From: a virus
IMG/VR virus record: IMGVR_UViG_3300021511_000021
Span: 1 to 34,769 of that record
DNA length: 34,769 bases
Direction: 5' to 3' (one strand)
Every line of letters starts with the position of its first letter. The stretch's first letter is position 1. Shown here piece after piece: positions 3,086 through 15,723 of this stretch. A model generated the notes under the pieces. It did no database searches and was not told the origin of the DNA. It worked only from the letters and a program-made list of their open reading frames with translations. A program made the position numbers and the translations under genes.

Positions 3086-4203
3086 ACGTTACAGACACTT
3101 CTCCTTACCATTATTGTAAGATAAAATGCTAAGAAGGAGTTTATAATGAATTGAGTTTGAGACGTGTACTTCTCATACGTTTTAAGTTGTCCAGCATCTT
3201 TTAAAACCTCTATGAGAAGTATGTTTATTTGAGCTTTGAAATATAATTGAGCAACCGTTCTTTTAACAGCCATGAGTCTTTTCACATAAATATAAAAACC
3301 ATCCCCACAAACCATATCAACAGTTTTAGCTTCTTTAACAAATAATTGTAACGCAATTTTTACATTATTATAATATTTTTCGTTGGTAACGCCGTTTGCA
3401 ATTACAGTTGCAATTGAAGTTTTGACCTTACTTATTTTCTTTGCTTCATCAAATGCTTTTCTGTCAATGATCTTGTATGATGTAATTTTCTTTGTAAGAT
3501 CATCAACGATTTTCTGTCCTTTTTCCAATACCTGATATTGATAGTTGTTTGCATCCTCATCGTCAGATATTTCACCTTGTGTTTTAATCGCCGAACCAGC
3601 TTTCCTATTGTCGTAATACGCTCGAGCAAAACTTTTAACACTTTGAGAAATTCTGGTTCTTGCAGCACTAAGAAAGGCAATAATTCTATCAATATCCCAA
3701 TTTTTAATATCATCTTTATAATTGCCTTGCATTTGATTTGCTAAATAGTATAAACTGTTGGGTATTGATTTCTCTCTGAAAAACAAATGAGTTCTTGTCA
3801 ACGTATCGAGTGTATATTTAAATGTATCCGGATAACAATATTTTATTTGTTTGTGCATAAGACGAGAATATTGAATTACCATAAAATATGCCATTCCTGC
3901 CTGAAAAGAAGCTTGATCTCTATGTTTTAAAAAGTAATGCATAACAAACATCAACATGTTAGTTCCTACGTCATTTGTTAATCGAAACTTTTCTGCTTTT
4001 GTTCCTTTGTATGTTCTTTTTACAAACTCTTTCATATCCTTATCTTTAATTTTAAAGATATGCAAAAGCTCATGGTAAAATCTCTTTGTCTTCGGATAAT
4101 AGCAGGGTTCAGAAAGTGCGGACAGTTCTCTTGCAGCACTTGTTGTAACAAACCTTTTTAATTGGTTATAATTTGGATTTACTTTATCATATAATATTTG
4201 CAT
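3082..4203 (-). CDS. Unrecognised alpha-helical protein of baseplate operon
   Basis: This 373-residue protein is not recognised. It is almost wholly helical, rich in Lys, Tyr and Phe, and has no signal peptide, clear membrane segment or enzyme motif. It is the last gene of the minus-strand tail operon and starts one base after the stop of the gp6-like wedge gene, so it is probably translated by coupling. There is an acidic loop (GEISDDEDANN) near residue 215. Position suggests a tail assembly factor or a baseplate component. Its 3' end overlaps the stop of the convergent gene by four bases, with no visible terminator between them. Confidence 0.6.
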   Translation of the reverse strand: MQILYDKVNPNYNQLKRFVTTSAARELSALSEPCYYPKTKRFYHELLHIFKIKDKDMKEFVKRTYKGTKAEKFRLTNDVGTNMLMFVMHYFLKHRDQASFQAGMAYFMVIQYSRLMHKQIKYCYPDTFKYTLDTLTRTHLFFREKSIPNSLYYLANQMQGNYKDDIKNWDIDRIIAFLSAARTRISQSVKSFARAYYDNRKAGSAIKTQGEISDDEDANNYQYQVLEKGQKIVDDLTKKITSYKIIDRKAFDEAKKISKVKTSIATVIANGVTNEKYYNNVKIALQLFVKEAKTVDMVCGDGFYIYVKRLMAVKRTVAQLYFKAQINILLIEVLKDAGQLKTYEKYTSQTQFIINSFLAFYLTIMVRRSVCNV

Positions 4204-4204
4204 A

Positions 4205-6667
4205 TTAGAATACCCTGATTGCTACATCGTCTTCTGTAAAATATACATACTCTGGTGCGTATTCCAGTAGTTGTGTTTGAGTAAATTCGTCAATATCAAA
4301 ATTGAAAAATATACTTGATTCTGGAGTAAGTAAACGACAATGATCAACTCCATCAACGCTTTGAACAATATCTACAATTTCAGATCTGAAAATTTCAGCA
4401 TTTATACCAAATCTATCTGTAAACCCCTCAACTAATGCTTCTCTAATTGATTGGGTTAGTGCTCCTAATGAACCTGTATAGGTATCTTCCCTAAACACAT
4501 CAAGAGAAATTTGTAATGGAATCATATACTCTGGTTTTACCCAACCTAAATCTGAATAGATATATTTATAATCTTCATTGGTAACATAAACCATCTGATC
4601 TGTTTTAGGATCAACATAAAACCATTCAAACGATGTTCCGTCGCTTACATATTCTGCAACCTGATCTTCATGATCTCCCCAATCCCCTGAGCTACCACGC
4701 CCAACAATATAACGATCTCCTTGTGATGGCAACAGAGGTTCGCCACAACGAATTGATGTTACAGGTCTCATATCTATATCATTTAACTGCATGTTACGCA
4801 AGATGCCTGTAGTATTTGAAAATTTAAAATTAACAAAGTCTGTCAACATTCTGTAATCTTTAAAAGTCATTGTTGAAAGTAATCGCTGGAGCACTTGAAG
4901 TTCAAAATCTCTTTGATTTATACCATCGTAATAATCCTTTTCCACCGTAGGAATGTCGTACACAATATAAGACGTTGAATCTGGTTGAACAACATCCGAC
5001 ATTGTAAAATCAGACAAGTCTTGTCTGAATACAAACTGTGTAGAATATTGTGCTATATTGCCATCTGTTGGATGTTTAATGGTGAAGAAATATGTTAGCT
5101 CACCCTTTGGGATAGCTTGATTATTTGGGAAGACTACAACGAACGCTGTACCATCATTTACCATATTGTATGTGGCACCAGTTTCTGAAATTTCCATTTC
5201 ACACGTGGTTGTAATAGAATCAACTTCTGTTGATTTATAATCCAATGTATAAGTAGCAGTAAGCCCAGCTCTTTCAACAGTTAAAAGATCAGCATACAAA
5301 TCATAATCAGAACCATAACTTGTAACCAGTGAAGGAATCTGTTCAATTTCATACATAATATAAGTATATTCTGCATTTGAATTTAGAGGGTCAATTTCAA
5401 TATCATATACTGTATAATAATCAACCCCATCAAAATTAATAATTGTTTGTCTCGGAATATATAATGTATCAAATGTTGCAAACACATCTCTTGTAGGAAC
5501 CAAATCATCAGCAAAGAATATGGTTGAAAATAATGCAATTTCATTTACTTTTAAATCTGATCGTTTTAATACAGGCAATGAGTTTGGTCCAATTGGAGAA
5601 TCGTCAATGATTACATTTGCATTTACAAAATCGTTTTCAGTTACAATTCTCTCTAAAGCAGAAATGTTAATAATAGCATTTCGTCTAATTTCTTCAAGAG
5701 ATTCCTCATCTTCACCAGCAAAAGCAGGAGCAGGGTTGGTTAAACCATATTGAACAATTTCAGTTATTCCTGCATCTGTTGTATTATAAATTCTGTCTCC
5801 GGTACTAATCGAACCGGTAATAACATTTCCATCCGCTCCATCTGTTAAAGATAAATTAACAAGAATGGTTGAACCCGCTTCAGGTTGGTATCCAATCAAT
5901 CCGTTTCCGAATTGTATATTTATTCCGGAGTCAGTTCTTCTTGATACATAACCTTTTGTCGTTGCTTCCATTAAAAACAAACTTGCAACCTCTACATAAC
6001 TTTCGTATGAAGCAGAAGACGCAGGTTTTACTTGAACTGTTTGCTCTGATATTTGACCAGAAAAAGGAACATCAACAGACACAAACTGATACTGTTGTAA
6101 ATCTTCTGGTACTGCAAATTCTTGTTCTGTCAATGAAAATTGTCTGAATGGAAGTATAAATACAAAGGCGGATTCTTCTATTGTTACAGGAAGATTATAA
6201 GTTCGATTCCCTTCTCGTACAGTTATTGTAACCTGTGAGTTGTTTGTAACATTAATTGTTGTTGAGTAATATGTCGTAAATATCACATCCCCTTCAGCGG
6301 TTACAGTAAATCCTTGTGGTATTTCAAACGTTGTAATTGCATCATCAAAACCAAAAGGTATTGTAAACATAACATCGGCTTGTGCTGAAGTTGCTTCGCT
6401 TGGACTGTAACCTAAAAATGCAGAAAGATTATAAATAGATTCAGGGAGTTGTGCCTTTGTTAAAAAGAATTCCCTGTATGATGAGATTTGATAAAATAAT
6501 GTATTACTTGTCAGCGTAGAAAGAGCATCGACGACAAATGATAAAAAAGATGATTTCGTTAAATCTACATTCTCGAGTTCCAAATATTGCTTTAACAAAT
6601 CAATAAGTTGGTTTCTAATTTGATCTCTTGATTTATATACCTGACTTGATACTGTTTCGTCTGCCAT
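4205..6667 (-). CDS. Baseplate wedge protein, T4 gp6 / phage J-like
   Basis: An 820-residue protein whose N-terminal part matches the baseplate J/gp6 pattern: YKSRDQIRNQLIDLLKQYLE, then a helical stretch with SFLSFVVDALSTLTSNTLFYQ, and EFFLTKAQLPESIYNLSAFLGY. A beta-rich middle follows, and the C-terminal part has SIREALVEGFTDRFGINAEIFRSEIVDIVQSVDGVDHC, typical of the family's C-terminal region. T4 gp6 is about 660 residues, so this one is longer, with extra beta domains in the middle. In T4 the protein forms the ring of the baseplate wedges. It lies just downstream of the gp25-like wedge gene and one intervening gene, the usual neighbourhood. The ATG is preceded by a GGAGATAAG ribosome site. 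Family identification is confident; details of the inserted domains are not known. Confidence 0.88.
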   Translation of the reverse strand: MADETVSSQVYKSRDQIRNQLIDLLKQYLELENVDLTKSSFLSFVVDALSTLTSNTLFYQISSYREFFLTKAQLPESIYNLSAFLGYSPSEATSAQADVMFTIPFGFDDAITTFEIPQGFTVTAEGDVIFTTYYSTTINVTNNSQVTITVREGNRTYNLPVTIEESAFVFILPFRQFSLTEQEFAVPEDLQQYQFVSVDVPFSGQISEQTVQVKPASSASYESYVEVASLFLMEATTKGYVSRRTDSGINIQFGNGLIGYQPEAGSTILVNLSLTDGADGNVITGSISTGDRIYNTTDAGITEIVQYGLTNPAPAFAGEDEESLEEIRRNAIINISALERIVTENDFVNANVIIDDSPIGPNSLPVLKRSDLKVNEIALFSTIFFADDLVPTRDVFATFDTLYIPRQTIINFDGVDYYTVYDIEIDPLNSNAEYTYIMYEIEQIPSLVTSYGSDYDLYADLLTVERAGLTATYTLDYKSTEVDSITTTCEMEISETGATYNMVNDGTAFVVVFPNNQAIPKGELTYFFTIKHPTDGNIAQYSTQFVFRQDLSDFTMSDVVQPDSTSYIVYDIPTVEKDYYDGINQRDFELQVLQRLLSTMTFKDYRMLTDFVNFKFSNTTGILRNMQLNDIDMRPVTSIRCGEPLLPSQGDRYIVGRGSSGDWGDHEDQVAEYVSDGTSFEWFYVDPKTDQMVYVTNEDYKYIYSDLGWVKPEYMIPLQISLDVFREDTYTGSLGALTQSIREALVEGFTDRFGINAEIFRSEIVDIVQSVDGVDHCRLLTPESSIFFNFDIDEFTQTQLLEYAPEYVYFTEDDVAIRVF

Positions 6668-6681
6668 TTCTTATCTCCAAA

Positions 6682-7356
6682 TTAACAAGGTGCTACATTA
6701 TTATTTGCAAAGTAATATCCACTCCTTGAATCGTACAAATTGGCTTTAACACACGCTTTTAAATGCTCATTTTTTGACAATAACAATGACATGAATTGAG
6801 CATCCTCCAATGTGTGAATATTCTTATCATACTCAAAGAATGAATAAGTATCTGACACTTGCAAATTTAGCTGATCTTCAGTAACACTCTGCTCGACCTT
6901 TACTTTTAGTTTCCAGAATGTTCTCTGTGTATTTACAGATTTTTCTACACCCGTTACATTGAATATCGGATAAACGTCATTTACTGGCTGTAAGTATGAT
7001 TGTTCTAATTTGATTTTATCGTTGGGTAATGGGGTGAAACCGTATGTACTTGGAATTGTAAATGATGTTTCATTCTCTTTTACATATCCCATATCCTGAC
7101 CATCGAACGCGGTAGAAATTTCTTCAGAATAATAAACAGGAAGTAATAATATCTTGCTCCATTGGACGCCTGAAAATTCACCGACTCTATCGTAGGAGCC
7201 AGCAAATATATTTTCATCTTCCCAAATGGTAGTATCTGTATCAATGTGATAGTAGGTGGTTAGGAACGAAACTACATCTTTGCTATAAAAGTCATACACA
7301 AGATTTTGGTACTCATGTATGTAGTCGTATATTCTTTCGTATTTTTGAGTGCTCAT
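6682..7356 (-). CDS. Probable baseplate-associated virion protein
   Basis: A 224-residue protein between the gp25-like and gp6-like wedge genes. It begins with a Tyr-rich helix (YERIYDYIHEYQNLVYDFY) and continues with mixed beta segments, including a conserved-looking stretch around VQWSKILLLPVYY and SFTIPSTYGFTPLPNDKI. No Cys cluster, membrane segment or enzyme motif is seen. Its start codon overlaps the stop of the gp25-like gene (TAATG), so the two are translationally coupled. The place in the operon is that of T4 gp53 or a similar wedge part, but I see no convincing sequence match to gp53, so the specific identity is open. Confidence 0.65.
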   Translation of the reverse strand: MSTQKYERIYDYIHEYQNLVYDFYSKDVVSFLTTYYHIDTDTTIWEDENIFAGSYDRVGEFSGVQWSKILLLPVYYSEEISTAFDGQDMGYVKENETSFTIPSTYGFTPLPNDKIKLEQSYLQPVNDVYPIFNVTGVEKSVNTQRTFWKLKVKVEQSVTEDQLNLQVSDTYSFFEYDKNIHTLEDAQFMSLLLSKNEHLKACVKANLYDSRSGYYFANNNVAPC

Positions 7357-7796
7357 TATATGGCAGCCCCTCCACCCTGTCTTACAACAGTACTATCATC
7401 AAATTTGACCGATAGCGTTCCTGTATCGCCATCATAATCGACAAAAACATTAACGGTGAATCCTTTTCGGTTAGAATTTAATATAACCTCAACACCTTCA
7501 ATTCTTGCACGATCATCATAGGCCCTTATCCGGGATACAACCTCAGTCTTAATCCTTTCAACTGTTGTTTCGTCTACCGGGTCAAACAAAATTTTGTGAA
7601 TATCACTTCCGTATTCAGGGTCCATTAAAAAAGTTCTTCTTGGAGTCATTAAGATATTATTCCACGACGTAATAATAACATCAATACCCGAGACTCTTTT
7701 GAAATCACCTTTCGCAGTAATCTTGGCTAAATAATCATAGATTCTATCATCAGATCCAACAACTTCCGTGTTAAACCTTTTTAATAAGTTAGCCAT
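7356..7796 (-). CDS. gp25-like baseplate wedge protein (GPW/gp25 family)
   Basis: This 146-residue protein carries the hallmark of the GPW_gp25 family: RRTFLMDPEYGSDIHKILFD, followed by a helix (ETTVERIKTEVVSRIRAYDD) and ARIEGVEVI, then beta strands. T4 gp25 is about 130 residues, so the length fits. The protein is part of the baseplate wedge core with gp6 and initiates sheath assembly. Despite old annotation as lysozyme, the family shows no lysozyme active site. The ATG directly follows the TAA of the predicted frameshift extension of the upstream gene, and its GGAGG ribosome site lies inside that extension. This arrangement makes translation of the extension relevant to expression of the wedge protein. 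Confidence 0.9.
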   Translation of the reverse strand: MANLLKRFNTEVVGSDDRIYDYLAKITAKGDFKRVSGIDVIITSWNNILMTPRRTFLMDPEYGSDIHKILFDPVDETTVERIKTEVVSRIRAYDDRARIEGVEVILNSNRKGFTVNVFVDYDGDTGTLSVKFDDSTVVRQGGGAAI

Positions 7797-7994
7797 TTAA
7801 CTTGTCCCCTCCAACAGCATTTTTTGTTTTTCATCTTCAAGATCAGTTTTCCACTTCAAATAATCTTGAAACCTTTTAACCGGCATTAACATAGTATCAC
7901 TGTATGATTGTTTGCTCATTTCCATACATGTGAAAATATTTGATATAAGTACATCACGATATTTATCTACGGTATTAGACTGAGTGCACCATGC
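7797..7994 (-). CDS. Predicted +1 frameshift extension of the gp26-like protein
   Basis: This open frame of 65 codons has no good start. It lies +1 to the gp26-like gene and becomes accessible by a +1 slip at the sequence AAT TTT TTT CGC near the end of that gene. The translated extension begins AWCTQSNTVDKYRDV and ends with a charged amphipathic helix containing MPVKRFQDYLKWKTDLEDE. The only ATG codons inside it (at 7925 and 7919) lack a ribosome site, whereas every neighbour has a clear one. The stop abuts the gp25-like start. The full fusion would be about 320 residues. By analogy, tail-assembly chaperones of many long-tailed phages are made as a short and a frameshifted long form. It could alternatively be a 40 to 42 residue independent protein starting at one of the internal ATGs. 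Confidence 0.6.
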   Translation of the reverse strand, partial: AWCTQSNTVDKYRDVLISNIFTCMEMSKQSYSDTMLMPVKRFQDYLKWKTDLEDEKQKMLLEGTS

Positions 7995-8760
7995 GAAAAA
8001 AATTTTCTACGAGATCGATATCCATGGCCTCTTGATGACCACAGTGTAGGCAATTGCTTGTCATTTTTAATGCAATGCCGTACTGACCGAAAACGTCCTT
8101 ATATTTAGCATATATGGATCTTTTATCTTTTGCAGGTAACGATTTATATGCATCCATAACATCTTCTCTTTCGCTATAAACAATTGAGTCGCCTTCTTCT
8201 GGATTATGTTGAAACTTAGTTAAAATTAAAGTCTCTGTCAACAAATCCATGTTTGATGAAACTCCGATGCCCATTGCCTTTAATGAAATACTTTCATCAT
8301 AGAGGGTTGGCTGCTTAATGAAAGCAATAACTCCCTTTGATATTGGCAATTCGACCTCAACTTCTTTTCCAATGATATCTTTCCCTGGATATGGGTTCAT
8401 ATCAAATGTTGATGAAGCCTTTACAGTTATAGCGTAATCCTTTCTGCATGATCCACATGTAACATCATAATTTCTTATGTCTTCGTATGTAATGTGATAC
8501 AGTCCATAAAGTAATGCATCACGATCCTTTAGTGTTGTACTTCTAAGAAAATCATCAAATGTAACAACCTTATCTGGTTTTACAACACAGGCCTCAAAGA
8601 TACATTTATTTAAATGATCATTGATTTTGGATGGTGTTAGCAAACTGCCTTTTAACCTTTCTTCTTCCTGTACATTCAATGAACGTAGATGGAACGATTT
8701 TCCCGTTTGAGGTGTAACAACCTCATACTCCGGGTACTTAATATTAAATCCTTGGAACAT
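7975..8760 (-). CDS. gp26-like T4-type baseplate protein / tail assembly factor
   Basis: A 261-residue protein resembling the T4 baseplate protein family that includes gp26 of T4-like phages. The N-terminus has YEVVTPQTGKSFHLRSLNVQ, followed by helices with EEERLKGSLL and FLRSTTLKDRDALLYGLY. A split zinc ribbon is formed by CGSC (102-105) and CLHC (237-240). The ATG has a strong AAAGGAG ribosome site. A good candidate promoter motif lies 27 bases upstream of the start. The zero-frame product stops soon after two Phe codons in a T-run; a +1 frameshift there would add 65 residues. In T4, gp26 and gp51 help to assemble the baseplate hub, and their genes sit close to the tape-measure gene, a place where other phages have chaperones. 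Confidence 0.72.
   Translation of the reverse strand: MFQGFNIKYPEYEVVTPQTGKSFHLRSLNVQEEERLKGSLLTPSKINDHLNKCIFEACVVKPDKVVTFDDFLRSTTLKDRDALLYGLYHITYEDIRNYDVTCGSCRKDYAITVKASSTFDMNPYPGKDIIGKEVEVELPISKGVIAFIKQPTLYDESISLKAMGIGVSSNMDLLTETLILTKFQHNPEEGDSIVYSEREDVMDAYKSLPAKDKRSIYAKYKDVFGQYGIALKMTSNCLHCGHQEAMDIDLVENFFRMVHSV
7993..8002 (-). promoter_or_regulatory. Candidate +1 ribosomal frameshift site TTTTTTTCGC
   Basis: On the minus strand the codons AAT TTT TTT CGC give seven T then C. A tRNA-Phe in the P site can move from UUU to the better-paired UUC when the next codon, CGC, is read slowly. UUU followed by a pyrimidine is an established type of +1 shifty site. A -1 shift would end after eight or nine codons, whereas +1 (or -2) opens 65 codons that reach the start of the next gene. 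Confidence 0.55.
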
Positions 8761-8786
8761 TTTGAACTCCTTTCATTCACGTTTTA

Positions 8787-8804
8787 TTTGTATTTAGTTC
8801 TTAA
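8787..8804 (-). promoter_or_regulatory. Candidate phage promoter motif (AGAACTAAATACAAA)
   Basis: Close variant of the motif found before other minus-strand units: AAGAACTAAATACAAA, with one change in the core AGAACAAAA. It lies 27 bases before the gp26-like start, between that gene and the tail tube gene. Confidence 0.5.
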
Positions 8805-9520
8805 CTGGCTGAAGCAGTGATATTACCGTAAGGCTCAATTGTATTGGCCTTTTGTGCAAATACTTCATCTGCCAGAGATTGGCATTTATCTTTTACCCAA
8901 TTTTCATGCCAAATATAATCAACATTAAACTCGATTTCTGTATCAAGTCTACCCACAGTTTCAACATCACTTGTGAACAAGTCTTGTGGGTCTTTTGTTG
9001 GAAACACACCATCATAGCACGCATAGTACTCAACGGTTTTTGCATCAGGTGCTGTAGTCCAGTAATACATAATAGCTGCATATGTACCCTTTGTATAACC
9101 CGCACCTTGTGGTCCGTCAACAAGATCAGTTGTACCTGTTCGGTAGTCTCTCATCATCTTGATCCAACCATGCATAATATTAAGAATTGGTACACCGTTA
9201 AACTCTAAGAATTTAACAGATACAGAGTTACCATAATCAATATTCGCAGGCACGGCCCACTTAATTCCCCCAAGTCCAGTAAACTCTACTTTATTAAGAG
9301 TTCCGCCTGGAGGTGTTACAGACAAACATGCACCCGCTAACAGATTCTGAATTGTTGCTGTATCTAATCCAGCGTAATCAGGTAGTTTAGTTGGTATTTT
9401 GGTCATGTACATAAAGTGATAACCAGTAACGTAAGGGTCAGCGACCCCACCAACAGTTCCACCAAAGTTACGAGTTAATCTGTTATTAGGAACTTTTGCA
9501 AATGAGTTTTTGATTCCCAT
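8801..9520 (-). CDS. Tail tube protein, gp19-like
   Basis: A 239-residue protein with the features of a myophage tail tube subunit: TGYHFMYMTKIPTKLP at the start, PPGGTLNKVEFTGLGGIKWA, a strand with VSVKFLEFNGVPILNIMHGW and MMRDYRTG, and a C-terminal half with TSDVETVGRLDTEIEFNVDY. T4 gp19 is about 160 residues, so there is an added portion, mostly the region around YYWTTAPDAKTVEYYACYDG. The protein would polymerise into the inner tail tube within the sheath. A GGAGG ribosome site precedes the ATG, and the gene starts five bases after the stop of the HAD gene. The tube gene is not next to the sheath gene here; the sheath lies about 4 kb away in another unit. Confidence 0.78.
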   Translation of the reverse strand: MGIKNSFAKVPNNRLTRNFGGTVGGVADPYVTGYHFMYMTKIPTKLPDYAGLDTATIQNLLAGACLSVTPPGGTLNKVEFTGLGGIKWAVPANIDYGNSVSVKFLEFNGVPILNIMHGWIKMMRDYRTGTTDLVDGPQGAGYTKGTYAAIMYYWTTAPDAKTVEYYACYDGVFPTKDPQDLFTSDVETVGRLDTEIEFNVDYIWHENWVKDKCQSLADEVFAQKANTIEPYGNITASAS

Positions 9521-9524
9521 TTTT

Positions 9525-10106
9525 TTAATCCTCCAAATTATGACTGATTCTAGATTTTATTTCCTTTAGAACTTCCAGCCAGTTACCATCTTTTATATGA
9601 ATGGCTTTATCATCTATATAAAAATCGGCGTTTAGTTTCTCAGCAGTTACCCTGTCATAATAAATATCATTGTTGCTTAGCCAGTTTTCCACACCTTGAA
9701 TTTGATCATTTACATCCTGACCGTGGTCCTTAGCATTTTCGGCTGAAGCTCTTGTTGTAAATATAACTATTTCATACCCTTTTGATTTTAACCAATCAAT
9801 AACTTGTTTTGCGCCAGGTATTGGATCGTCATATAAAGATCCATCCTGCCAACTTTTTGAGTATTTGTGTATTGTTCTATCAAGATCAATCATTGCCCTC
9901 ATAACTCGAGACGTTTTAACAATTGCCTCGTTTGGGTATGCAACTCTCAGTATTTGTTTCTTTTTCTTCTTTTTAACATATCTATCAGAACCAGGGAACG
10001 CATCATATGTAGCACCAATGCCTGCAGCAGCGGAAACACCACCACCTGTAGCACCGTCCATTTCCTCTGTACCCTGAATCTGCTCTAAGTATTTTTCTAT
10101 TTTCAT
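9525..10106 (-). CDS. HAD-family phosphatase with unusual N-terminal extension
   Basis: A 193-residue protein. Residues 70 to 190 form a HAD hydrolase: motif I MIDLDRTIH (Asp74, Asp76), motif II FTTRA (Thr117/118), and motif IV ADFYIDDKAI (Asp165, Asp166). Such proteins remove phosphate from small molecules or nucleic acid ends; the substrate cannot be told. The first 50 residues are not part of the fold: a short helix, a Gly/Ala tract (GATGGGVSAAAGIGA) and a run of six lysines. This may be a virion-targeting or nucleic-acid-binding tail. It heads the tail operon, directly before the tail tube, with a candidate promoter 35 bases upstream. No good ribosome site is seen before the chosen ATG; M16 is an alternative start. 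Confidence 0.8.
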   Translation of the reverse strand: MKIEKYLEQIQGTEEMDGATGGGVSAAAGIGATYDAFPGSDRYVKKKKKKQILRVAYPNEAIVKTSRVMRAMIDLDRTIHKYSKSWQDGSLYDDPIPGAKQVIDWLKSKGYEIVIFTTRASAENAKDHGQDVNDQIQGVENWLSNNDIYYDRVTAEKLNADFYIDDKAIHIKDGNWLEVLKEIKSRISHNLED

Positions 10107-10654: not shown

Positions 10655-11653
10655 TTGAAAAAATTTGTTATGAAGTTTGATAAACGGTTTGCAAATGAAG
10701 ACTATGAGTTGCTATTTAACACATCAACGGGTTTGGAGATACTTCAAGGTGTCAATGGAAAAGAAGATCCTTTCTCGTTATATCTCCCCTCATTGCTTGA
10801 TATTGGGGTGATGGGCACCTGTAAAAATAAATGCCCATTCTGTTATCAAGGGTATGGCCAAACACCGAATATGAAGCTATCAGACTTCATGAGCATCATT
10901 GATGCTGTTCATCATCATACAAATCAAGTTGCTTTGGGTGGACGCGGTGATCCAAACAAACACCCTCAATTTGCCGATATGTTAGAGTATTGCCGAAAAC
11001 ACAACGTTGTACCAAACTATACGACAAGCGGGATTGATCTTACGGATGATGAAATTGAAGCATCTGCAATGTGTGGGGCTGTCGCTGTAAGCGATTATGA
11101 GCAAGATTTCACATATGATGCCCTGCAACGATTCATGGATGCAGGTATTAAAACAAACATCCACCAGATCTTCGACGCCAAGACGTTTCACAAATGTACA
11201 TCGTTGATTAAAGGTATTGATTACTGGCAAGGGAGAGTTGATATTAACCAACTAAATGCTGTAATATTTCTCCTATTTAAACCACAGGGCGGTGGAAAAC
11301 AAATGAAGTTCCTGCAACCAACACAAATACAATTGGAGATGATGGCAAATAGAATCCTCGAACCCGAATGTAAATTCAAGGTGGGTATGGATAGCTGTTT
11401 AGCAAATCATGTTGTAAAATATGTAACTCCAACGCCACTGCAAGCAATGTCAATTGATACTTGTGAAGCAGCCCGAATGTCAGGATATATAACACCTGAT
11501 ATGAAATTCAAACCATGTAGTTTTGCGGAAAGTAGTACAGAAGTTCACTTAGGATGGGACGAGATTTCAGCAATATGGAATACGTCCGATCCGTTCAATT
11601 TCTTTAGAGATGTATTAAAAGAAAAATCCAATTCCTGTCCGATAGGATTCTGA
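10655..11653 (+). CDS. Radical SAM enzyme with SPASM/twitch-like C-terminus
   Basis: A 332-residue protein with the radical SAM cluster motif CKNKCPFC (Cys56, Cys60, Cys63; C-x3-C-x2-C) and a following GGRGDPNKHPQF at the place of the family's GGEP motif for SAM binding. The C-terminal part has further cysteines in DSC, DTC, KPC and the terminal NSCPIGF. The spacing CEAARMSGYIT to KPC resembles the twitch/SPASM domain that holds auxiliary iron-sulfur clusters. Such enzymes often modify peptides. It starts at TTG, chosen because an AAAGGAG site is correctly spaced; the next ATG is codon 6. It is followed at once by two genes with the same N-terminal tag, which are the obvious candidate substrates. 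Confidence 0.85.
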   Translation: MKKFVMKFDKRFANEDYELLFNTSTGLEILQGVNGKEDPFSLYLPSLLDIGVMGTCKNKCPFCYQGYGQTPNMKLSDFMSIIDAVHHHTNQVALGGRGDPNKHPQFADMLEYCRKHNVVPNYTTSGIDLTDDEIEASAMCGAVAVSDYEQDFTYDALQRFMDAGIKTNIHQIFDAKTFHKCTSLIKGIDYWQGRVDINQLNAVIFLLFKPQGGGKQMKFLQPTQIQLEMMANRILEPECKFKVGMDSCLANHVVKYVTPTPLQAMSIDTCEAARMSGYITPDMKFKPCSFAESSTEVHLGWDEISAIWNTSDPFNFFRDVLKEKSNSCPIGF

Positions 11654-13761: not shown

Positions 13762-15723
13762 TTATTGAATAAAGAAGTTTAGTTCAATTTGTTCAACAAC
13801 TCTTGTAGGTTGTAGAATAATATTAACATGGAATTTCTTTGTTTTCTTTTCGTAGTCCGTTGCTCCAACGTCTACTGAGTAACTATCCAAACCTCTTTTG
13901 TTTTTGATGACTTCAAGGAAATCAACAATTGAAGACGACACCTGTGTCCAGGTAATCTGATCATTTTGCTCAAAGATGAAGAAGCGACAGAATTGCTCAA
14001 TCGCTCTCTTGCAATAAAGAACAAGTCTTACGATGTTCAGATCTTGTAGAGCACTTGGTTTCGCCTGTGATGTTAATTGTCCCCAAACAACATAACCCGC
14101 TGAGAATTGAACAATTGGATTTAGTTGTTTCAAGTACATTTGATCACGTTGACCCAATCGTGGATTGTATCTCAATTCCTTAATTGAATCAATTGCACCA
14201 CGGTTAAATCCAGCAGCTGCAAACCATAGTTCTGCTACATTGTCATTTCTTGGGATCAAGTATGACATATGGTAAACAGGTGAGAACCAAATATCTTCGC
14301 CTGTAAAGGCATCAGATACTTTGTTATAACATTCATATAGAGCAACATAAAAGTTGTTAAATGTATTAACATCAGTTCTTGTTGAAAGTGCTAGATTAAC
14401 AGTTGCATTATCACCATTGTCAAGAATACCAACACAGTCACGTCTTGTTTGACATAGTGTGCTGATTGCAGTCTTAACATCGGCTGGATACCCTGCATCA
14501 TATACAAGGGTAAAGTAAATATTTTCTGTATCAAGAATTTGATCATCAATCAATCCTGAGTATGCTTGCTCAAGAAGAGTTTCTGCTTCAAAGGTATCCA
14601 GACTTCCGTCTGCCTGAACCAATGATCCTTCAGATCCTTTTCTCAATGGTGTGGGTTCTGCTGATGCAAATGCTTCAGCAACGTTTCCATTTGAAGCTTT
14701 GATTTGATATGAAACAGTAGAATTTACATCGAAGCTTGAAACAGATCCGTTCCATCCTTGTGTTCCACCGGTAAGATTTCTATCTGGGAATACGTTAACT
14801 GCATCACCATCAAAACCACCAGATGCTCCTAACCAACCCCAAATCGAATTACCTTTTGCGTCTCTGGCTTCAACGATATAATTAGCATTACCTGCCTCTA
14901 TTCCACCTGTAGCTTCCCAATCTTCAAACTCTTGTTTGTTATCTGTAATTGTAGCTGAACCAGCTGTTAAGTCAACAGTAACTGTACCGATATCTTTATC
15001 ATATACTCTTGCAATTAGATCGAAACCTGATGTATATTCACCATCAGCTGTCTCCATATAGAATCTCATCATTGATGAGTATGTTTCAAGGATACTACCG
15101 ATAAAGATTGAATCTCCGCCATTGTCTACTGCAAACGGATCGAATGATACATCAAATGATTCGATGATAACATCTTCACCATCTGATTGTTTTTCATAGA
15201 TGTCTAATACATATACTCCATATAGCGTTGGATTTGAATGTTGTGTAAATCGCACAGCAAGTGAGTTGTAATAGTCACCTCTACCGATTGGAACTAAAAA
15301 TCCTAACGGTTGTATATCACCAGAATCTTCTAAGTTTGTAATAATTTCAGCTTCTGAATTTAAACCTTCAACGTAAGTAATTGAAATACTTGCAGTTGCA
15401 TCAGCCGTAGCCAATCTAGTATCAATTCGTAAATTTGAATATGTAGCATCATCTGGTAAACATCTCATCCAATATAACGCACCTGATTCACCTAAATGAT
15501 TGTATGCGACATATGGACCTTGACCGTAATTTTTTGTATAGTCAGTAATTCGTGGTTCGCCCCATTCGCTGATTAAGTCAGCTCTTGACCCAACGAAAAT
15601 AACTTCGTTGTCTCGACCTTTGCGTGAAAACCCACACATAAATCCAATTGTAGATGGGACTGCTTGTACAAATGTAGATAGGTCGATAATTTTGGTAAAA
15701 ACACCCGGAGATACATTAGCCAT
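13762..15723 (-). CDS. Contractile tail sheath protein
   Basis: A 653-residue protein with the tail sheath pattern: MANVSPGVFTKIIDLS at the start, then STIGFMCGFSRKGRDNEVIF. Near the C-terminus is LYCKRAIEQFCRFFIFEQND, followed by WTQVSSSIVDFLEVIKNKRG and a final beta strand. T4 gp18 is 659 residues, so the length is normal. The sheath contracts around the tube at infection. The middle contains variable beta domains likely exposed on the outside. A GGAGGAAG ribosome site precedes the ATG. It is the last gene of its unit, with a terminator seven bases after its stop. Confidence 0.92.
   Translation of the reverse strand: MANVSPGVFTKIIDLSTFVQAVPSTIGFMCGFSRKGRDNEVIFVGSRADLISEWGEPRITDYTKNYGQGPYVAYNHLGESGALYWMRCLPDDATYSNLRIDTRLATADATASISITYVEGLNSEAEIITNLEDSGDIQPLGFLVPIGRGDYYNSLAVRFTQHSNPTLYGVYVLDIYEKQSDGEDVIIESFDVSFDPFAVDNGGDSIFIGSILETYSSMMRFYMETADGEYTSGFDLIARVYDKDIGTVTVDLTAGSATITDNKQEFEDWEATGGIEAGNANYIVEARDAKGNSIWGWLGASGGFDGDAVNVFPDRNLTGGTQGWNGSVSSFDVNSTVSYQIKASNGNVAEAFASAEPTPLRKGSEGSLVQADGSLDTFEAETLLEQAYSGLIDDQILDTENIYFTLVYDAGYPADVKTAISTLCQTRRDCVGILDNGDNATVNLALSTRTDVNTFNNFYVALYECYNKVSDAFTGEDIWFSPVYHMSYLIPRNDNVAELWFAAAGFNRGAIDSIKELRYNPRLGQRDQMYLKQLNPIVQFSAGYVVWGQLTSQAKPSALQDLNIVRLVLYCKRAIEQFCRFFIFEQNDQITWTQVSSSIVDFLEVIKNKRGLDSYSVDVGATDYEKKTKKFHVNIILQPTRVVEQIELNFFIQ

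Follow-up and report, generated by a model that had tools for sequence, protein, structure and literature searches.

We analysed a viral sequence of 34,769 bases (IMG/VR record IMGVR_UViG_3300021511_000021), the whole of which is called the window below, and found a gp26-like gene that overlaps a second open frame at its 3' end, within a series of contractile-tail and baseplate genes (Table 1). The gp26-like protein passes the curated cut-off of the Pfam family PF12322 (37.7 bits versus 24.5, E 2.3e-9), with residues 10-256 of the protein aligned to positions 2-219 of the profile, and it also matches PHROG 150, a baseplate hub family, at 2e-10. No NCBIfam model matched the gp26-like part or the extension, and the Pfam tail tube model reached the gene directly upstream with an E-value of 0.12 only, which is under the cutoff. 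An Rfam scan of positions 7700-8900 and a tRNA scan of the whole window were both empty. Elsewhere in the region, a HAD-like gene (9525-10106, minus strand; PHROG 1238, 1.9e-22) lies between the tube-like gene and an opposite-strand block, and the gp6-like protein carries a DUF2793 module at residues 643-710 (Pfam 4.8e-8). In the block transcribed opposite to the tail genes, the ORF at 10655-11653 (plus strand, TTG start) encodes a cysteine cluster, CKNKCPFCYQGYG, which we take to resemble a radical SAM enzyme motif.

Table 1. Features of the tail gene region in the window, with positions, strands and the matches or roles assigned to them
Feature	Position	Strand	Assignment or proposed role
gp6-like baseplate wedge gene	4205..6667	-	PHROG 219 5.5e-34
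ORF without assignment, between the gp25-like and gp6-like genes	6682-7356	-	
gp25-like baseplate wedge / sheath initiator gene	7356..7796	-	Pfam GPW_gp25 1.1e-8; PHROG 261 3e-20
+1-frame extension, 65 codons and stop TAA	7797..7994	-	C-terminal part of the proposed long form (TAC-NC)
gp26-like gene, short form of 261 aa	7975..8760	-	PF12322 T4_baseplate; proposed short tail assembly chaperone (TAC-N)
Frameshift site TTT TTT CGC, codons 254-256	7993..8001	-	Proposed slip from the second TTT (7998-7996) to TTC (7997-7995)
Tail-tube-like gene, adjoining the gp26-like gene upstream	8801..9520	-	PHROG 21400/21257 virion structural; PHROG 45 tail tube E 4.5e-4
Gene for the tail sheath (contractile tail context)	13762..15723	-	PHROG 19666 1.4e-72; PHROG 23 5e-45

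The zero frame of the gp26-like gene begins with the ATG at 8760 and its product ends in ENFFRMVHSV, followed by a TAA stop at 7977-7975. At the junction the zero-frame codons are AAT (8004-8002), TTT (8001-7999), TTT (7998-7996) and CGC (7995-7993); the run of seven Ts occupies 8002-7996 and the C that follows it is at 7995. A +1 step at TTT|C opens a frame of 65 codons (7994-7800) that ends in a stop at 7799-7797; the gp25 ATG follows without a gap at 7796. The initial annotation had described exactly this layout, a zero frame ending FF-RMVHSV-stop and a +1 opening of 65 codons up to the gp25 ATG, and the coordinates confirm it. The +1 frame is closed by an upstream stop and is open for just 12 nt before the first new-frame codon, and the -1 frame closes 8 nt past the zero-frame stop; the extension lies in +1 and not in the X XXY YYZ -1 arrangement of T4-type phages.

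Relatives of the gene were collected from viral contigs by a protein search (8 loci), a profile search (the best 80 of 142) and a search with more distant members (the best 80 of 203). With the window included and overlapping contigs counted, the pooled set held 165 loci, one of which (L024) was dropped because its contig ends before the end of the gene. The 164 usable loci gave 121 distinct junctions after the removal of 43 that were identical over 360 nt. Statistics on codons, dN/dS, folds and SD-like sequences were calculated for the 118 junctions that read TTT TTT CGN or for subsets of these, with three TTC TTT CGC sequences left out; the subsets were the 115 cases with a complete extension and 61 representatives at 80% identity. 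The 115 complete cases form 61 clusters at 80% and 41 clusters at 70% protein identity. One locus, L130, was left out of the extension alignments since its extension (after position 3283) is shortened to 43 codons; there an apparent indel, reflecting assembly error or decay, removes the MP-helix region.

TTT|CGN was found at the Phe-Arg pair in all 121 distinct junctions among the relatives retained (the top 80 from each of the two larger searches), 118 of which read TTT TTT CGN and three of which (L160, L163 and L178) read TTC TTT CGC. The +1 extension is open in every one of the listed junctions, with the contig end cutting it in three and a shortened form in one (L130). The comparison establishes, in the sequences, both the overlap of the two frames and the invariance of UUU|CGN. 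The +1 shift at UUU-C that the initial annotation took as probable gains support from these 121 of 121 listed junctions, and the shifty site and the extension both proved to be conserved at the same locus in relatives. The same site and open +1 extension were also present on two MAG contigs labelled Thermoplasmatales and Woesearchaeota (L187 and L188, 2/2), at 59 and 53% identity.

The choice of codons at the site differs from that in the remainder of the genes. The last base of CGN in the 118 TTT TTT CGN cases was T in 55, C in 37, A in 14 and G in 12. Elsewhere in the same 118 genes, Phe was encoded by TTT in 984 of 1256 positions (78%) and Arg by CGN in 242 of 1108 (22%), AGA being the commonest Arg codon, and TTT CGN did not occur once outside the site. 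Over the 35 window genes counted, CGN accounted for 118 of 391 Arg codons. The chance of CGN in 41 clusters would be 0.218^41, about 1e-27, a figure that assumes independence of the clusters, which is not fully true. Double coding accounts for part of the invariance of TTTCG. Since TTT|CGN is found in 121 of 121 junctions together with conserved extension residues, its conservation, as far as sequence comparison can tell, exceeds what chance or coding constraint alone would give. The occurrence of all four bases at the third codon position, and of TTC as the first Phe codon, fits a site at which nothing but the P-site UUU and the following C counts. The locus has the features that define the UUU_CGN class, namely UUU followed by an in-frame CGN with the extension in +1.

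Purifying selection, judged from the comparison of relatives, acts on the extension. The median dN/dS was 0.24, with the first 12 codons omitted, and the ratio was below 1 in all 731 pairs with usable dS, out of 1830; the other two frames of the extension region hold stops in 61/61 representatives. MP, W, K and other extension residues are invariant in all 61 aligned extensions. The initial annotation had seen a conserved-looking MP-x-x-R-F helix in the extension; the MP part of this stands, while R and F vary. Modelled alone, the extension is predicted to be helical, with helices at 10-31 and 43-68 of the 69-aa query (pLDDT 82.5). The best viral structure matches of this model had E-values of 0.2 or worse and include Prochlorococcus Gp51 and a PhiW-14 protein; nothing was drawn from them, because short helical hairpins match easily.

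The AF2 model of the gp26-like protein (pLDDT 85.8) gave 68 hits with E-values no higher than 0.001 in a set of predicted viral proteins, and many of these are named baseplate hub or gp26. Among solved structures, a Foldseek search with the model gave nothing significant (2ob9 at E 0.95) and a sequence search gave E-values above 0.3 only. The three best VIA-align rows, which cover roughly residues 1-100, were 3klu (YqbN, Z 4.5), 2ob9 (the HK97 tail assembly chaperone, a weak match with Z 4.2, rmsd 5.2 and 87 aligned residues) and 3fgx (Z 3.9). YqbN is presumably a PBSX-type phage protein. The predicted structural likeness of the gp26-like protein to known tail assembly chaperones is a hint only.

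It is very likely that the gp26-like gene undergoes +1 programmed frameshifting at UUU_CGN, which would yield the long form of a T4-type tail assembly chaperone. From the conserved layout we infer that ribosomes do shift here, and we propose the following P-site mechanism, efficiency and chaperone role. Most ribosomes would read 261 codons and stop, producing the short gp26-type chaperone. A minority would pause while the P site holds peptidyl-tRNA-Phe on UUU and the A site the seldom-used CGN; the Phe-tRNA would re-pair one base forward onto UUC, and reading in the +1 frame for 65 codons would give a long form with a helical C-terminal domain. By analogy with lambda G/GT, coating of the tape measure protein would fall to the short form, and recruitment of tail tube subunits to the extra domain of the long form.

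The slip is placed on the second Phe codon because three natural variants read TTC TTT CGC and keep the extension; in these variants only a +1 movement on the second UUU keeps the pairing of the Phe-tRNA (UUU to UUC). In 77 of 118 sequences no more than 15 nt of open new frame precede the first new-frame codon, and thus the shift there would have to take place at this site or between it and the zero-frame stop. In 27 of 118 the open +1 stretch before the new-frame start is 21-30 nt long, and in 14 of 118 it is 63 nt or more, so that a slip further upstream is possible in those sequences alone. None of the 61 sequences analysed had an SD-like 5-mer in the 20 nt upstream of the site, and there was no consistent downstream fold (mean z -0.53 against dinucleotide shuffles, with 11/61 below -2). 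As no SD-like or structural stimulator was found, the frameshift level may be low. A low level would fit, since the long product is a minority in lambda, where the ratio is given as 30:1 (PMC5009743).

The extension could instead be a separate small gene, expressed from an internal ATG (for example that at 7925) or by reinitiation after the gp26 stop. Annotators call such short ORFs in AR9 and cyanophages, and extensions do contain ATGs; those in the window lie at 7925 and 7919, and would give a 42-aa ORF. However, by the criterion used no SD-like sequence precedes either of these ATGs, and just four of the 115 complete relatives listed have, within the extension's first half, a start codon preceded by an SD-like sequence, which is TTG in all four, whereas the gp26 ATG had an SD-like sequence in 61/61 tested. 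(A control at gp25 starts, with SD-like sequences in 27/65, relied on a crude start finder and was set aside.) In addition, 64 of the 115 have no ATG, GTG or TTG before nt 54 of the new frame, the CMEM ATG is changed to Ile in L010, L039 and L060, and a separate gene would account neither for the residues conserved ahead of that ATG nor for the invariance of TTT|CGN. The comparison therefore argues, as the initial annotation had held for the window, that the extension has no usable start or ribosome site of its own and that no credible alternative start exists. Related phages carrying the extension as a gene with its own ribosome site had been named at the outset as grounds for rejecting the frameshift, and none of the 121 listed junctions shows such a gene with a clear ribosome site. 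Because of the difference between extension and gp26 starts, independent initiation is ranked low, and we regard it as very unlikely.

Two further alternatives concern the T run itself. A sequencing or assembly error might have split a single gene, given that homopolymers are error-prone and that the window has seven Ts, and this too had been named beforehand as a way in which the reading could fail. However, the same frame relation is kept in 121/121 listed junctions from many metagenomes, with both frames conserved, and the relatives vary, having six or seven Ts or TTC TTT C. Since the run is conserved, and is only TTC TTT C in three relatives, there is next to no chance that it is an error. 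Alternatively, RNA polymerase could slip on the T run during transcription, or the ribosome could slip by -2 instead of +1; six to seven Ts are present in 118/121 junctions, and a -2 slip reaches the same frame. Yet L160, L163 and L178 (TTC TTT CGC) have no run of more than three Ts and keep the extension, a -2 slip would bring the Phe-tRNA onto a non-Phe codon in these variants, and under polymerase slippage the strict CGN after the run stays unexplained. Slippage of either kind is accordingly highly unlikely. The frameshift could also be real and its product a component of the baseplate hub rather than a chaperone for tube and tape measure. In the T4 literature gp26 is listed as a chaperone of hub assembly or as part of the hub (PMC3004832), baseplate genes of the gp25 and gp6 types lie downstream, and no gene next to the short/long pair was recognised as encoding a tape measure protein. 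On the other hand, a tail tube-like gene lies directly upstream of the gp26-like gene, tail assembly chaperones have a short/long pair as their hallmark, and a 2022 paper (Vladimirov, Gautam and Davidson, as cited in PMC10885494 and PMC12846349) is credited with identifying the T4-like tail assembly chaperone genes, the gp26-type proteins. A hub component is thus unlikely in our view. In lambda, the tape measure gene directly follows gpG/gpGT. The window does not have this order, in which the pair lies between the tube and tape measure genes, but has a tube-like gene upstream and the gp25-like gene, the ORF without assignment and the gp6-like gene downstream; T4 gene 26 also abuts gene 25, so the T4-type pair does not keep the lambda order either.

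Tail assembly chaperones made in a short and a long form by frameshifting are known in principle, and the +1 direction appears, from sequence comparison, to be new for the gp26 family. The initial annotation knew of no described case for gp26-like proteins; this does not hold for -1 shifts, since poly-T -1 sites have been reported for T4-like chaperones (PMC10885494, PMC12846349), but it does hold for +1, for which we found no report in gp26-type chaperones in the open-licence literature. Nothing on UUU_CGN sites in phages was found in that literature either. In lambda gpG/gpGT the shift is -1, in contrast to +1 in the window. For the HF1 group of haloviruses, a +1 shift has been proposed at a conserved TTT-CGC shortly upstream of the stop codon that ends the first chaperone gene (PMC7230728), which is the same proposal as that made here, in viruses of archaea. 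The gene order reported for that group is tube-TAC-tape measure, as against tube-TAC-gp25-gp6 in the window, and HSTV-2 has been listed as very likely +1 (PMC5009743). The archaeal labels of the two MAG contigs, together with this halovirus TTT-CGC precedent, raise the idea of an archaeal host but do not show it. In the influenza PA-X model of Firth et al., the Phe-tRNA moves from UUU to UUC with a seldom-used CGN in the A site, and the same authors, who pointed out the preference for CGN, predicted that UUU_C sites form a class (PMC3498833). PA-X and the amalgaviruses (PMC3498833, PMC5009743) have UUU_C in the P site and CGN in the A site, as in the window; they belong to eukaryotic RNA viruses and involve other genes, whereas the window is from a prokaryotic DNA virus whose clade uses any CGN codon.

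In other lineages the gp26-like gene is likewise overlapped at its 3' end, but in the -1 frame. Such overlaps are present in 13/13 complete named-phage records (six T4-type and seven AR9-type, including phiR1-37) and likewise in L001-L003 and the metagenomic L107; Listeria phage LPJP1 was not counted, as its record ends before the junction. The T4-type records (6/6) are S-RIM8, PhiW-14, T765, VH1_2019, ZPAH1 and Melnitz-1, and four of these (S-RIM8, PhiW-14, VH1_2019 and ZPAH1) have T TTT TTC followed by G. The octamer TTTTTTCG is common to these four records and the clade of the window, but is read in the opposite phase, TTT TTC G in the former and TTT TTT CG in the latter. The T4-type gp26/gp51 proteins share the Pfam family and the short/long architecture with the window, although the shift is -1 there and +1 here. 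T4 itself has no overlap, gene 26 abutting gene 25. In gp51 of T4 a second gp26-type copy (PF12322, residues 1-201) is followed by a C-terminal tail, which gp26 does not have, and this agrees with the statement in the PRFect paper that some T4-like phages have a short gene and a separate longer gene (PMC10885494). In S-RIM8 (L091 1471-2369) a 45-aa 'baseplate hub assembly catalyst' (gp51) is annotated after T TTT TTC, and it looks like the tail of a gp26-like -1 frameshift product.

AR9, PBS1 and the jumbo Staphylococcus phages are the closest named relatives of the window. All 17 matches of its gp26-like protein at E 0.01 were to Staphylococcus and Bacillus phages, and a scan for AR9-type relatives gave three loci, two of them genomes already in the set. 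A stop-proximal LFR or LFH stands in these phages at the place of FFR in the window, and their overlapping C-terminal ORF has no early start, as in the window, but lies in the -1 frame after CTT TTY. CTT TTY followed by a -1 overlap was seen in AR9, PBS1, Goe21, BpSp, five jumbo Staphylococcus phages and phiR1-37. The AR9-type overlap loci are L001 4650-6073 (AR9 gp230/gp229), L002, L003, L097 and L099-L104, and in none of the records examined is the overlapping ORF annotated as a joined gene. Annotated small genes of the AR9 type, gp229 of AR9 among them, probably represent the 3' portions of frameshift products. The extension profile of the window gave no match to the T4-type -1 extension (hhalign E 0.47) and a marginal one to the AR9-type extension (25 columns, E 0.0012, probability 19%), and for this reason we infer homology of the extensions from their position. 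It is likely that the direction of frameshifting has flipped within one chaperone family, with -1 in T4-type and AR9-type phages and +1 in a widespread uncultured clade that includes at least one 248-kb contig.

For annotation, these comparisons mean that small ORFs following gp26-type genes, such as 'gp51' of cyanophages and gp229 of AR9, are probably the ends of frameshift products. The 121 natural variants could be used as they stand to measure the requirements of UUU_CGN in bacterial or archaeal ribosomes, and, if the proposed reading is true, the UUU_CGN clade, in which no stimulator was detected, would be a large natural test set for shifts of this type in prokaryotic viruses. Two overlapping frames must co-evolve, and the direction of a frameshift should therefore be hard to change. 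The use of -1 by some lineages and of +1 by another, with the short/long logic of the products retained, suggests selection for the pair of products and not for one particular recoding device.
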